Assembly (NCBI RefSeq): GCF_002000055.1
Contig: NZ_MVBD01000014.1
Location: 1 to 64,000, forward strand
DNA: 64,000 nt
DNA from: Marinicella sediminis
Lineage (GTDB): Bacteria; Pseudomonadota; Gammaproteobacteria; Xanthomonadales; Marinicellaceae
Direction of reading: 5' to 3'
Shown: one piece after another, positions 13,707 to 19,167 of the stretch
How positions within the stretch are numbered: position 1 is the stretch's first letter
How the letters are laid out: each line of letters begins with the position of its first letter
Translations under genes and position numbers: made by a program
The notes under the pieces: generated by a model
The model's input: only the letters and a program-made list of their open reading frames with translations
Databases searched by the model: none
Told to the model about the DNA's origin: nothing

Positions 13707-13735
13707 TTGTTTTTTCCCTGTATGTTCCCTATAAT
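13707..13735 (+). promoter_or_regulatory. promoter of the LexA/radical SAM cassette, probably leaderless
   Basis: TTGTTT (13707-13712), a 17-base spacer and a perfect TATAAT (13730-13735). Transcription would begin about 7 bases later, at the ATG of the lexA-like gene (13743). No Shine-Dalgarno sequence precedes that ATG. Confidence 0.65.
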
Positions 13736-13742
13736 CAAACAC

Positions 13743-14363
13743 ATGTTGACCACCCGCGAACAAGACACCCTGGCGTTCATTGAACGTTACCTCAGGGAAC
13801 ATCAGAAGCCGCCCCGTCTGGTAGACATTGGCGAAGGCCTGGACATCAAAGCCATGGCCCACATTTCCCGCCTGCTAAAGGCACTGGAACAGAAAGGCTA
13901 TATTCAGCGCAGCCGTGCCAACCGTGGTATTCATTTATTAAAAACCAGTGACCAACCATTGACTGGCCTGAGCATCAGTATGGAGCCCGGTGAATTGCCC
14001 GTGCTGGGCCGCATTGCAGCGGGTTCTCCGATCGAAGCAGTCAGTGATGATGAAAGCATCGACATCAATGCCATGCTTGCCGGTCAGGATCATTTTGTGC
14101 TTAAGGTTGAGGGCCAATCGATGCAGGATGTGGGCATCATGGATCAGGATTGGGTGGTGATCCGGGCCTGCCAGACGGCGCGAAATCATGAGATTGTGGC
14201 GGTGATGATCAATGGCTGGGAAACCACCCTGAAACGCATACAATACATCGATGAGCAAACCATCCGTCTGATTCCCGAAAACAGCACCATGGATGCGATG
14301 GAGTACCACCCGGATCAGCTGGCCATTCAGGGCGTTCTGGTGGGGCAGTTCCGCCGTTACTGA
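13743..14363 (+). CDS. LexA-like SOS repressor
   Basis: A 206-residue LexA-family repressor-protease. The winged helix at residues 1-65 starts LTTREQDTLAFIERYLREHQ and has SRLLKALEQKGYIQ; the recognition-helix region (GLDIKAMAHI) differs from the usual RSPNAAEEHL, so the operator is probably different from the E. coli box. The self-cleavage site is A93-G94 in LGRIAAGSPIE, the catalytic Ser is S126 (VEGQSMQDVGI) and the Lys is K164 (TTLKRIQ). The ATG at 13743 is chosen from family alignment; the frame stays open upstream to 13566. The stop overlaps the next start (TGATG), linking it to the radical SAM gene. Confidence 0.92.
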   Translation: MLTTREQDTLAFIERYLREHQKPPRLVDIGEGLDIKAMAHISRLLKALEQKGYIQRSRANRGIHLLKTSDQPLTGLSISMEPGELPVLGRIAAGSPIEAVSDDESIDINAMLAGQDHFVLKVEGQSMQDVGIMDQDWVVIRACQTARNHEIVAVMINGWETTLKRIQYIDEQTIRLIPENSTMDAMEYHPDQLAIQGVLVGQFRRY

Positions 14364-15652
14364 TGAAACTGATTGATAAACTTGCGGTATTGGCCGATGC
14401 TGCCAAATACGATGCTTCTTGCGCCTCCAGTGGAACCAGCCACAGAAACTCCCTGGATGGCAAAGGCATCGGCTCAGCCGGCGGCACAGGGATTTGTCAC
14501 AGCTACACACCAGATGGCCGTTGTGTGTCTCTGCTGAAAATCCTGCTGACCAACTTTTGTATTTATGAATGCAGTTACTGTGTCAACCGGGCATCCAGTC
14601 AGGTACGTAAAGCACGATTCAGTGTCGCTGAAGTGGTGAAACTGACATTGGATTTCTACCGCCGCAATTACATCGAAGGGTTGTTCCTCTCATCCGGTAT
14701 CATCAACAACGAAGATTACACCATGGAACAACTGATCCTGGTGGCCAAAGACCTGCGCCTGAAACATGGTTTTCGTGGCTACATCCACCTGAAAACCATT
14801 CCGGACGCTTCACCTGAGTTGCTTAAAGAAGCCGGGCGCTATGCCGACCGCCTGAGCATCAACATTGAATTGCCGACGCAGCAGAGCCTACAGAAACTGG
14901 CCCCGGAAAAAAGCCTGCAAGGCATCACCAGTACCATGTCACGGCTCAAATCAGGCATTGAAGAGGCCAAAGAACAACACAAAAACCACACCCGGATCAG
15001 CAACCAAAAGACCCGCAGCCGGCTGGTGTTTGCGCCGGCAGGCCAGAGCTCTCAAATGATCATCGGTGCCGATGATTCCACCGATGGCACCATCCTCAAA
15101 ACCACCGACCGGCTGTACAGCCGTTATCGCATGCGGCGGGTGTACTATTCGGCCTTCAGCCCGATACCGGATGCTTCATCGGCACTGCCCCTGCAGGCTC
15201 CACCATTGGTGCGGGAACACCGCTTGTATCAGGCGGACTGGTTGTTGCGGTTTTATGGCTTCCGTACCGATGAAATCGTGCCCACACAAGGCACTGATGC
15301 CGGCATGCTGGACCTGCACATTGACCCCAAACTGGCCTGGGCGATCCGCCACCGTGACTGGTTCCCGGTGAACATCAACCGGGCACCGCTGGAATTGCTG
15401 TTGCGGGTGCCCGGTATTGGTGCGCGCACCGCGTACAAAATCACCACGGTGAGAAAACACCGTCTGCTGAGGCTGGCTGATCTGCAAAAACTGAGGGTTC
15501 CTTTGAAAAAATGCCGGCCTTTTATCGAAACCCTGGACCACACCCCAAACAGCCAATTGCTCGAACATGACAACCTCAGGGCACAGTTTGTACCACCGGT
15601 CCAGCAGGAGCTCGCCTTGTTCCAGTCCACTGCATCGATGGTGTTTTCATGA
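14363..15652 (+). CDS. putative DNA modification/repair radical SAM protein (TIGR03916)
   Basis: A 429-residue radical SAM enzyme. The iron-sulfur site is C66-x3-C70-x2-C73 in NFCIYECSYCVNR, and the conserved segments GLFLSSGI, LRLKHGFRGYIHLKTIP and RLSINIELPT follow. Near the C-terminus a helix-hairpin-helix DNA-binding motif is visible (NRAPLELLLRVPGIGARTAYKI). This matches the family usually found next to a DUF4130/uracil-DNA glycosylase protein and thought, without direct proof known to me, to act on DNA. It overlaps lexA at its start and the DUF4130 gene at its end (ATGA), so all three are translated together. Confidence 0.93.
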   Translation: MKLIDKLAVLADAAKYDASCASSGTSHRNSLDGKGIGSAGGTGICHSYTPDGRCVSLLKILLTNFCIYECSYCVNRASSQVRKARFSVAEVVKLTLDFYRRNYIEGLFLSSGIINNEDYTMEQLILVAKDLRLKHGFRGYIHLKTIPDASPELLKEAGRYADRLSINIELPTQQSLQKLAPEKSLQGITSTMSRLKSGIEEAKEQHKNHTRISNQKTRSRLVFAPAGQSSQMIIGADDSTDGTILKTTDRLYSRYRMRRVYYSAFSPIPDASSALPLQAPPLVREHRLYQADWLLRFYGFRTDEIVPTQGTDAGMLDLHIDPKLAWAIRHRDWFPVNINRAPLELLLRVPGIGARTAYKITTVRKHRLLRLADLQKLRVPLKKCRPFIETLDHTPNSQLLEHDNLRAQFVPPVQQELALFQSTASMVFS

Positions 15653-16536
15653 ACATCGACGGCGTGAGGGATTTCAAAACCTGGCGACAACACGCCAGGG
15701 ATTTACTCAGGCAGCAGGTCCATCCGACGACCATCAACTGGGCTGGTGACCAACAGACTCAGCTGGCATTTGCCGAACCCATACAGATTCAGGAATCAAC
15801 CAGTGCTTACCCACCCACCAAAACCCAGGTCCCGGCCAACTTTCTGAAGCTGGCCCGGGCTGCTGCCTGTTACCGCGACGATGACCGCTGGGCTTTGCTC
15901 TACAGCCTGTTGTGGCGCCTGACCCATGATGAGCCGCACTTGCTGCACCTGATCACTGATCCTGAAGTCCGTCGCTTGCGCCACATGGCCCAGGCCGTGC
16001 GCCGGGATGCGCATAAAATGCATGCCTTTGTGCGCTTTAAAAAACAGCAGATTGACGGGCAGGACTGGTATGTTGCGTGGTTCGAACCCAACCACCTGAT
16101 TGTGCCTGACACGGCAGACTTTTTCATCCGCCGCTTCAACACCATGAACTGGTCCATCCTGACTCCGGATGCCTGTGCCCACTGGGATCAGCAACAACTG
16201 AAGTTAACCGAAGGCTGCGAAAAACCCACTGACATCGATTGCACTGGTGATGACATGGATGATTACTGGCGCCAGTACTATCGACACATCTTTAATCCGG
16301 CACGCTTGAAAACCCGGGCCATGCAAAGTGAAATGCCAAAGAAATACTGGCACAACCTGCCTGAAGCTGAACTGATCAATGAACTGACCCAGGGCTCAGG
16401 ACAACTGACCGAACAGATGCTGCGCAATGCCACCCGGCACCCCGATCACTTGCGCCAAAAATCAAAACGCCTGCGCGAACAACAGGACCGCATCAGAGCC
16501 AAAAATGAGATCCTCAATCATCCCATCACTGAATGA
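15649..16536 (+). CDS. DUF4130 domain DNA-metabolism protein (TIGR03915), without glycosylase domain
   Basis: A 295-residue protein matching the partner of the radical SAM repair protein. Family motifs include ALLYSLLWRLTHDEPHLL, VRRDAHKMHAFVRFK, YVAWFEPNHLIV, DFFIRRFNTMNWSILTPD and YYRHIFNPARLKTRAMQSEM followed by PKKYWHNLPEA. In many proteobacteria this domain is fused to a UdgX-type uracil-DNA glycosylase; here the protein stops after the DUF4130 part and a short basic coiled tail (LRQKSKRLREQQDRIRAK), and no glycosylase gene follows. It converges with the hydrolase gene, overlapping by 11 bases. Confidence 0.9.
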   Translation: MNIDGVRDFKTWRQHARDLLRQQVHPTTINWAGDQQTQLAFAEPIQIQESTSAYPPTKTQVPANFLKLARAAACYRDDDRWALLYSLLWRLTHDEPHLLHLITDPEVRRLRHMAQAVRRDAHKMHAFVRFKKQQIDGQDWYVAWFEPNHLIVPDTADFFIRRFNTMNWSILTPDACAHWDQQQLKLTEGCEKPTDIDCTGDDMDDYWRQYYRHIFNPARLKTRAMQSEMPKKYWHNLPEAELINELTQGSGQLTEQMLRNATRHPDHLRQKSKRLREQQDRIRAKNEILNHPITE

Positions 16537-17468: not shown

Positions 17469-19025
17469 TCACTCTGCTGATCTGAGCAGTGGATGCACAT
17501 GAATGTGGTTCAGGCGGCGCTTTTCCGGGTCCAGTAAGAAACGCACCAGAATAAAGTAGATGTCCAGATCAAAAGCATCCAGACCCTCATCACACTCAAG
17601 CTGATGGCTTTCGGGCAACCTCGCTGCAGGCTGTTTTCTGACGACAAAACCTGCCTCCCTGAGCTGCTCTTCCGAATCAATGCCTCGTAAATAGACCCAT
17701 TGATTGACCAGGTGAAATTGTGATGGCCTGTGTTCATCCGTAGACCGTTCTTCAACCAGTACCGCTTCCGGCCAGGGCCAGATTTTCTGTTGATAGCCAT
17801 TGAGCGCACGAGCCAGTCGTTGGTTGTGATCAGCGTATGTTTCCTGACCACAACACACCCCCTGGCATTTTTTCAGCTGGTGCCTGAAACAGGACTTTTG
17901 GTTGCTGACTTTTTGGTTTTCGATGCCCAACACCTGATGACACAGCATGAAATGATCCGCCAATTTATGCAGCTTGTTGTGCACCTGTCGGCGGCTGCGG
18001 AACAGGCCATAGCTGTTTTGCACCAAATGGTCGGAGTCTTCCACATCAACCGCCACAATTTCCGGATAATCATAGCCCTCAGGGTGGTGTCTGATCACCA
18101 GGCGGTAGAGCTTGCGGACCCGTCGCAATCGCGAGTTATACAGCGGTTTGAGGGCTTTGACTTGTTGGCTTTCCAATAACTGGGCACCCAGGTCAGAGAC
18201 CGTGCACTGATAGGTGATTGAGGCGATCGAGGCGCTCATTTTCAAGTCCTTGTGGTTCTGGTGGTCCTGGGAAAAATGACTCAACACCCGTTGTCTGATG
18301 TTGACGCTTTTACCGACATACAACAACACCTCCCGGGCATCATAAAAATGATACACCCCTGGTGATTTCGGCAAGGCATCCACATCGCTTTGCCTGATCT
18401 GTGATGGCAGGCTGTGTTCTTTGAGCAATTGCTGACAGGCCGCCTCAATATCCGCTGTGGTATGAATCTGTGTGGTTTTTAAGAAAAACCGGTGAATCAT
18501 TTGTGCATCATCCAGCGCCCGGTGCCGGTTTTCGATGCTCAAGCCAAATCGCCTGATGATCTGGTCCAGCCCATGCCGGTTGAATTGCGGGTACAACATT
18601 CGACTGAGTTTCACTGAACACAGCGGTTTGTCCTGATAACTGATGCCTGAGCGTTTGAACTCCTGTTTCAGAAAACCATAATCAAAGCGCGCATGATGTG
18701 CCACCAGGGTGCGATCAGCCAGCACCGCCAGTAATTCATCAGCCAGCTCTGCAAAAGTGGGCGCGGCATTGACCATGGACTGGGTGATACCGGTCAGACG
18801 GGTGATGCCCGGTGGAATCGGGCGTTCAGGGTCTACAAAGCTTTGCCAGGATTTAATCAACTTGCCGTCTTCAACGATCAGCAAGCCGATTTCAATGATG
18901 CGGTGGTAGGTGGCCCGCCCGCCAGTGGTCTCGCAATCGAGCAACACCATGCGCGGTGGAAAGCCAGAAGAAAGCTGACCGGCTGATGCAGCATCCAGCC
19001 AGTCCAGTTGTGTGGATAAGGTCAT
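17469..19025 (-). CDS. DEDD exonuclease fused to a GIY-YIG (UvrC/Cho-like) nuclease
   Basis: A 518-residue two-nuclease protein. The N-terminal half is a DnaQ-type 3'-5' exonuclease: VLLDCETTGGRATYHRIIEIG (metal site 1), LVAHHARFDYGFLKQEF (site 2) and HRALDDAQMIHRFF (site 3). The middle is a GIY-YIG domain: SPGVYHFYDAREVLLYVGKSVNIRQRVLSHF. A Cys cluster follows (CFRHQLKKCQGVCCGQE), as in UvrC/Cho homologs. Such fusions are annotated as Pol III epsilon-like or Cho-like proteins and probably act in repair. The start is uncertain: ATG codons at 19025 and 19049 and a TTG at 19058 all lack a ribosome site. Confidence 0.9.
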   Translation of the reverse strand: MTLSTQLDWLDAASAGQLSSGFPPRMVLLDCETTGGRATYHRIIEIGLLIVEDGKLIKSWQSFVDPERPIPPGITRLTGITQSMVNAAPTFAELADELLAVLADRTLVAHHARFDYGFLKQEFKRSGISYQDKPLCSVKLSRMLYPQFNRHGLDQIIRRFGLSIENRHRALDDAQMIHRFFLKTTQIHTTADIEAACQQLLKEHSLPSQIRQSDVDALPKSPGVYHFYDAREVLLYVGKSVNIRQRVLSHFSQDHQNHKDLKMSASIASITYQCTVSDLGAQLLESQQVKALKPLYNSRLRRVRKLYRLVIRHHPEGYDYPEIVAVDVEDSDHLVQNSYGLFRSRRQVHNKLHKLADHFMLCHQVLGIENQKVSNQKSCFRHQLKKCQGVCCGQETYADHNQRLARALNGYQQKIWPWPEAVLVEERSTDEHRPSQFHLVNQWVYLRGIDSEEQLREAGFVVRKQPAARLPESHQLECDEGLDAFDLDIYFILVRFLLDPEKRRLNHIHVHPLLRSAE

Positions 19026-19167
19026 GGTCAATGGATTTTTATTGACCATTCTAGCCAATGGCGGTGAATATTTTGTGTGCGGCTTAAGCTGTCAAATGGA
19101 TTACGGACCTGTTGAATGACAAGCGGTCTTTGATCACCTGATCCCACAAACTTTTGCCACATTTATC

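Follow-up and report, generated by a model that had tools for sequence, protein, structure and literature searches.

A lexA-radical SAM-DUF4130 operon in Marinicella that apparently carries its own, dedicated LexA

Genes and promoter of the operon

The window, i.e., the 64-kb stretch of DNA that was analysed, originates from a Marinicella (Gammaproteobacteria) genome of 3.99 Mb that is 98.3% complete (referred to as G000). On its forward strand it harbors three overlapping genes. The first, lexA (13743-14363), has a leaderless-type start and encodes a 206-aa protein, identified by a TIGR00498 match above the cut-off, by matches to PF01726 and PF00717, by alignment and by the N-terminal part of a structural model. 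It is followed by the gene of a 429-aa radical SAM protein of the TIGR03916 family (14363-15652), with a C66-x3-C70-x2-C73 motif and a C-terminal helix-hairpin-helix, and by the gene of a 295-aa DUF4130 (TIGR03915) protein (15649-16536), recognized from profile matches. At the lexA/radical SAM junction, TGATG, the stop codon TGA (14361-14363) has one base in common with the ATG at 14363, while the radical SAM/DUF4130 junction is an ATGA overlap (15649-15652). Gene ends, overlaps and families were all checked and bear out the three-gene operon that a first-pass annotation of this DNA had described, and the two overlaps make the translational coupling it proposed probable.

The same order of lexA, radical SAM and DUF4130 genes is found in a relative, M. 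meishanensis (G005), where the first-pass annotation would have it looked for, and the order is therefore not due to chance. The three-gene operon is thus present in G000 and G005, and in M. marina (G004) lexA is solitary with the radical SAM-DUF4130 pair on a different contig. In three further genomes (G010, G015 and G016) lexA is also solitary and a TIGR03916 match was not found; some of the assemblies in this lexA-containing set are fragmented. Near the DUF4130 gene, the window also contains a gene for a fusion of an RNase_T exonuclease and a GIY-YIG domain (17469-19058, reverse strand); in G004, a similar exonuclease/GIY-YIG gene (L041 8281-9828, reverse strand) immediately adjoins the unlinked radical SAM-DUF4130 pair and is convergent with it. 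A PADLOC search returned 0 matches for the LexA, radical SAM and DUF4130 proteins.

Upstream of lexA, a weak -35-like hexamer, TTGTTT (13707-13712, forward strand; TTGTAT in relatives), is located 17 bases upstream of a perfect -10 element, TATAAT (13730-13735), which is invariant in an alignment of seven promoters. Between them is the candidate LexA operator, TTTCCCT-GTAT-GTTCCCT (13713-13730), a direct repeat with a period of 11 bases. This repeat, KTTCCCT-N4-KTTCCCT in general form, runs into the TATAAT, which in turn ends 7 bases before the ATG at 13743, so that a leaderless start is plausible, in line with the promoter type suggested earlier. A consensus promoter scan did not list the lexA promoter. 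The seven aligned promoters share a block of 26 invariant columns, including the start codon; the sequence TTGTATKTTCCCTNYWTKTTCCCTATAAT, ending 6-7 bases before the ATG, is common to the six lexA promoters and the radical SAM promoter of G004, and the window differs from it in that TTGTTT replaces TTGTAT. The putative operator is found by motif match in lexA's own promoter in all six lexA genes, and with the G004 promoter the direct repeat is the conserved upstream motif that the first-pass annotation had suggested seeking. Its geometry, with a period of 11 bases, is that of GTTC-N7-GTTC, named as the alphaproteobacterial box in the available part of PMC8565304. An exact GTTC-N7-GTTC is located upstream of the radical SAM gene of G004.

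The LexA protein and the range of its operator

The LexA protein scores 158 bits against TIGR00498 (cut-off 111) and matches both PF01726 and PF00717, i.e., a winged helix-turn-helix and an S24 peptidase. The residues A93-G94, S126 and K164, which we take to be the self-cleavage site and the Ser/Lys dyad, are present and are invariant in an alignment of six Marinicella LexA proteins; the full set of self-cleavage residues ascribed to the protein at first reading was thus found. The AlphaFold model has a mean pLDDT of 47 and is usable over the first ~60 residues, where helices 4-20, 26-32 and 38-50 are followed by a wing, the remainder being poor. The recognition helix would correspond approximately to residues 38-50, and the earlier description of this helix as unusual is supported.

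LexA proteins above the cut-off were found in 6 of 33 genomes of the family, all in Marinicella (6 of the 18 in the genus), while the other 12 Marinicella genomes gave none. The presence of lexA does not track the recA tree, which lacks resolution and does not discriminate between a gain and a loss of lexA. A member of the same family but of another genus (G001) has a LexA match below the cut-off in two adjacent pieces (L042 9412-10029); its sequence has an alphaproteobacterial look, and the split may reflect a frameshift or a mistake in the assembly.

The first-pass annotation regarded the LexA encoded here as probably a second one. A profile search of G000, at 98.3% completeness, revealed no other LexA above the TIGR00498 cut-off; the only other match is a UmuD-like S24 peptidase of 139 aa without a DNA-binding domain, and the description as a second LexA is not upheld. 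At L002 1498-2566 (reverse strand), the gene of this UmuD-like protein is located directly after an SRAP gene (PF02586), and a gene for a UmuC-type (IMS) polymerase is found one gene beyond.

The operator is confined to a small number of sites. Without mismatches, KTTCCCTNNNNKTTCCCTA occurs at 7 sites in 33 genomes, which are the six lexA promoters and the promoter of the unlinked radical SAM-DUF4130 operon in G004; genome-wide, G000 has one exact site, before lexA. A looser form, KTTCCCNNNNNKTTCCC, yields 9 exact sites in the six Marinicella genomes with lexA and 0 in six without. Of the 2 extra sites, one is inside a kinase-like ORF and the other, in G015, precedes the gene of an exported-looking 168-aa protein. 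Because the reversed pattern gives 3 sites in the former and 10 in the latter genomes, the number of extra sites is at the level expected by chance. The one in G015 may be a genuine promoter site.

As far as detectable in the sequences, the LexA regulon is thus apparently this operon type alone, which supports the earlier proposal of a dedicated LexA. A somewhat unlikely alternative is that LexA controls a small regulon that extends beyond this operon type, with additional targets behind weaker or differently built operators. Such targets would explain why G010, G015 and G016 retain lexA and the operator in genomes without a radical SAM gene, where there is no nameable LexA target besides lexA itself, and the extra exact site in G015 is what this alternative would predict. 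However, one-mismatch sites of the form TTCCCTN5TTCCCT (30 in the six genomes with lexA, 25 in the six without) are not more common than those of the reversed pattern (38 and 26, respectively), and 23 of the 28 sites of one set are inside ORFs of at least 90 aa, the other 2 of the 30 having been read separately. All 30 sites in the lexA-containing genomes were read, and no recognisable SOS gene was seen downstream of them.

The protein might instead be a general LexA, with an ordinary SOS regulon of Marinicella under its control and the two enzymes located behind lexA by happenstance. This explanation, which we consider quite improbable, draws on the fact that bacteria usually have a general LexA and that the protein is the sole LexA above the cut-off in G000. 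It is at odds with the single exact operator site in that genome, with the 12 Marinicella genomes in which no LexA passes the cut-off and with the recA promoters, which are alike in species with and without lexA. In 8 readable of 10 fetched recA loci (4 with and 4 without lexA) no operator was found, the best match missing at least 4 of 12 bases. At 10 umuD loci, three of them from lexA-containing genomes other than G004, G005 and G016, there was no match better than 3 mismatches. A general SOS repressor would be recognized by operators at recA and further SOS genes, and no such operator was found in the loci that were read. The first-pass annotation had held that the lack of a second lexA would make this simply the general LexA, which does not follow, because the operator is found at this operon type only.

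The enzyme pair and its control in relatives

The radical SAM protein scores 564 bits against TIGR03916 (cut-off 343.5), a family that we take to be the same as COG4277, and its partner scores 222 bits against TIGR03915 (cut-off 112). Together with the CX3CX2C motif, these are the features expected of a TIGR03916 member. The cysteines C66-x3-C70-x2-C73 as well as C20, C45 and C54 are invariant over nine homologues, and the helix-hairpin-helix (PF12836) scores 25.8 bits, just below the cut-off of 27. The AlphaFold model of the DUF4130 protein is poor, with a mean pLDDT of 42. Among the 33 genomes of the Marinicella family, 3 have a TIGR03916 protein above the cut-off, and all 3 have lexA. In the literature searched, no chemistry was found for any member of TIGR03916.

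The absence of a uracil-DNA glycosylase (UDG) had been noted at first reading as a departure from the usual arrangement. When the 64-kb window was searched with a UdgX protein, the sole match was the DUF4130 gene, and the UdgX/TIGR03914-linked form of the system was not encountered there. At 32 radical SAM loci outside Marinicella, a DUF4130 gene is found in every case (32/32), and 19 of the loci, including the one that supplied the query, also have a UDG-like domain. With 13 of 32 loci lacking a UDG-like domain, a missing glycosylase is ordinary and does not set this operon apart.

The position of lexA inside the operon was seen only in Marinicella. In a sample of the class (369 genomes), 11 exceeded the TIGR03916 cut-off, and none of the 10 other loci has lexA next door, as judged from ORF starts in the surroundings. 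In a sample of the phylum (398 genomes), 84 exceeded the cut-off. A LexA search covering 80 of them, the other 4 being among the 10 loci just mentioned, showed an adjacent LexA in G000 only, the next nearest being 35 kb away in G741 (from same-contig coordinates compared by eye).

LexA boxes of the host's type are, on the other hand, common. At 30 loci outside Marinicella the region before the radical SAM gene was examined for LexA boxes, 28 of them by scanning from -100 to +20 of the start and two alphaproteobacterial loci (G566 and G485) by coordinates; loci were labelled alpha or gamma/beta on the basis of kinship, LexA sequences and the box before lexA. The GTTC-N7-GTTC box is present at 11 of 11 scanned alpha loci (shuffle expectation 0.03) and also in G566 and G485, i.e., at 13 of 13 in total. 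The usual gamma/beta LexA box, CTGT-N8-ACAG, is found at 10 of 17 gamma/beta loci (shuffle expectation 0.03), the other 7 being without an exact match. When the boxes were swapped, matches were found at 0 of 17 gamma/beta and 0 of 11 alpha loci. In all, a host-type box precedes the radical SAM gene at 23 of 30 Pseudomonadota loci.

For Bacteroidetes, SOS control of the COG1573-COG4277 pair has been predicted (PMC8565304, in the part available), and the same text refers to SOS-controlled repair based on a UDG that is known from Verrucomicrobia and Alphaproteobacteria. LexA control of the radical SAM-DUF4130 pair is therefore not new in principle, and given this published control and the 23 loci with host-type boxes, the term undescribed system, applied to the operon at first reading, is too strong.

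Recent transfer of the whole cassette from an alphaproteobacterium, together with a LexA and an operator of the GTTC-N7-GTTC type, appears very improbable: the repeat geometry, the exact box in G004 and the BLAST scores of LexA (107-134 bits to 13 alpha sequences against 59-100 bits to 7 gamma/beta sequences) fit such an origin, but identity to the alpha sequences is just 31-38% (26-35% to the gamma/beta sequences), and the Marinicella LexA (98/95) and radical SAM (97/92) proteins form clades of their own outside the alpha rows, so that the trees are unsupportive. The very long branches of G741 among the LexA rows and G463 among the radical SAM rows make the deep joins in these trees unsure.

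The enzymes were also looked for on mobile elements. The radical SAM query gave 0 matches to viral contigs, and with the DUF4130 alignment a single locus came up, both distant and partial. Ten phage records were listed as having a radical SAM relative; the one that was read is a 240-kb contig labelled "Acinetobacter phage", which harbors glycyl-tRNA synthetase genes among bacterial-looking neighbours and is therefore not counted as phage evidence. The radical SAM gene is found on 158 plasmid records (for example L268), many from Phaeobacter, Paracoccus, Azospirillum and Leisingera, and in the one that was read a UdgX gene adjoins it.

Proposed mechanism, related systems and a second motif before recA

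We consider it most probable, at roughly 70%, that this is a damage-inducible operon for repair, self-contained in that it has a LexA of its own. Dimers of this LexA, bound to the direct repeat between the -35 and -10 elements, would shut off lexA and the radical SAM and DUF4130 genes jointly. Upon DNA damage, a RecA filament would trigger self-cleavage of LexA at A93-G94, involving S126 and K164, and the operon would be derepressed. Coupled translation would then yield the three proteins in step, the newly made LexA resetting the switch, while the radical SAM/helix-hairpin-helix protein and the DUF4130 protein may act jointly on a DNA lesion. In other Pseudomonadota this pair, whether accompanied by a UDG domain or not, presumably acts likewise under the general LexA, and the remaining repair genes of Marinicella, including recA, would be outside the control of this LexA. 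LexA binding and cleavage, joint action on DNA and the damage induction already put forward in the first-pass annotation are here inferred from the genes and motifs.

Several known systems resemble this arrangement in part. The Bacteroidetes COG1573-COG4277 operon has the same radical SAM family and damage-type control, but is controlled by the host SOS repressor, includes a UDG and, as described in the available part of PMC8565304, has no lexA inside. In Pseudomonas putida, lexA2-imuABC is likewise a LexA co-transcribed with a damage operon under its regulation; there, lexA2 is a second LexA beside the general one and the cargo is a mutagenesis cassette (PMC5261740, in the part available), whereas G000 has one LexA above the cut-off and no extra lexA beside a general one was found in it. 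HdiR of Streptococcaceae and UmuDAb of Moraxellaceae are S24 repressors of lineages that lack LexA and likewise control very few genes, but belong to other repressor families and target mainly error-prone polymerases, according to the same part of PMC8565304. A comparable division of labor is seen in Deinococcus, where LexA controls a mutagenesis cassette and IrrE/DdrO controls recA and other genes (PMC8072749, in the part available), with other cargo and in another phylum.

In the literature searched, which is a limited set, the lexA-radical SAM-DUF4130 arrangement was not found. What we describe is a known LexA-controlled radical SAM-DUF4130 operon that here carries its own LexA. Apparently new are the self-contained operon, the seeming single-operon regulon and a separate palindrome before recA, recQ and recC. 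A LexA seems to have shrunk here to a single operon, and most of the genomes searched in this family lack a LexA above the cut-off. The host-type boxes at most loci tested would tie the enzyme pair to DNA damage across Pseudomonadota and, with the private LexA found here, argue that these enzymes are worth keeping damage-inducible. The operon offers a small genetic handle both on the function of the enzymes and on how LexA regulons change.

The separate palindrome, TTCTCAAnnnTTGAGAA, is found in recA promoters of species with and without lexA. With at most one mismatch, 52 sites were counted in 12 Marinicella genomes, compared to 5 for the reversed pattern, and a site of this quality precedes recA in 7 of the 9 species whose upstream sequence could be read, the copy in G017 having 2 mismatches and G018 having no such copy. 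Among the sites that were read, it also precedes genes resembling recQ and recC, one of each being confirmed by Pfam (PF04257 in the case of recC). We regard TTCTCAAnnnTTGAGAA as a candidate operator of a repair regulon other than that of LexA, and its position before recA fits control of recA by another regulator, as in Deinococcus. A broader and more tentative reading, to which we give somewhat less than even odds, is that Marinicella is a living intermediate in LexA replacement, in which the general LexA was lost, a diverged direct-repeat LexA became private to a single repair operon, and an undescribed TTCTCAAnnnTTGAGAA repressor took over recA, recQ and recC. If this reading is correct, the lineage would allow a test of the idea, found in the available part of PMC8565304, that LexA, once diverged, goes on to regain control of the SOS network. 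The other TTCTCAAnnnTTGAGAA sites that were read are inside ORFs or before genes without an evident repair role, and the palindrome might serve something besides the damage response; in G000 a site is found at C44:39131 (L263:1501), in addition to 51 further sites in the 12 genomes.
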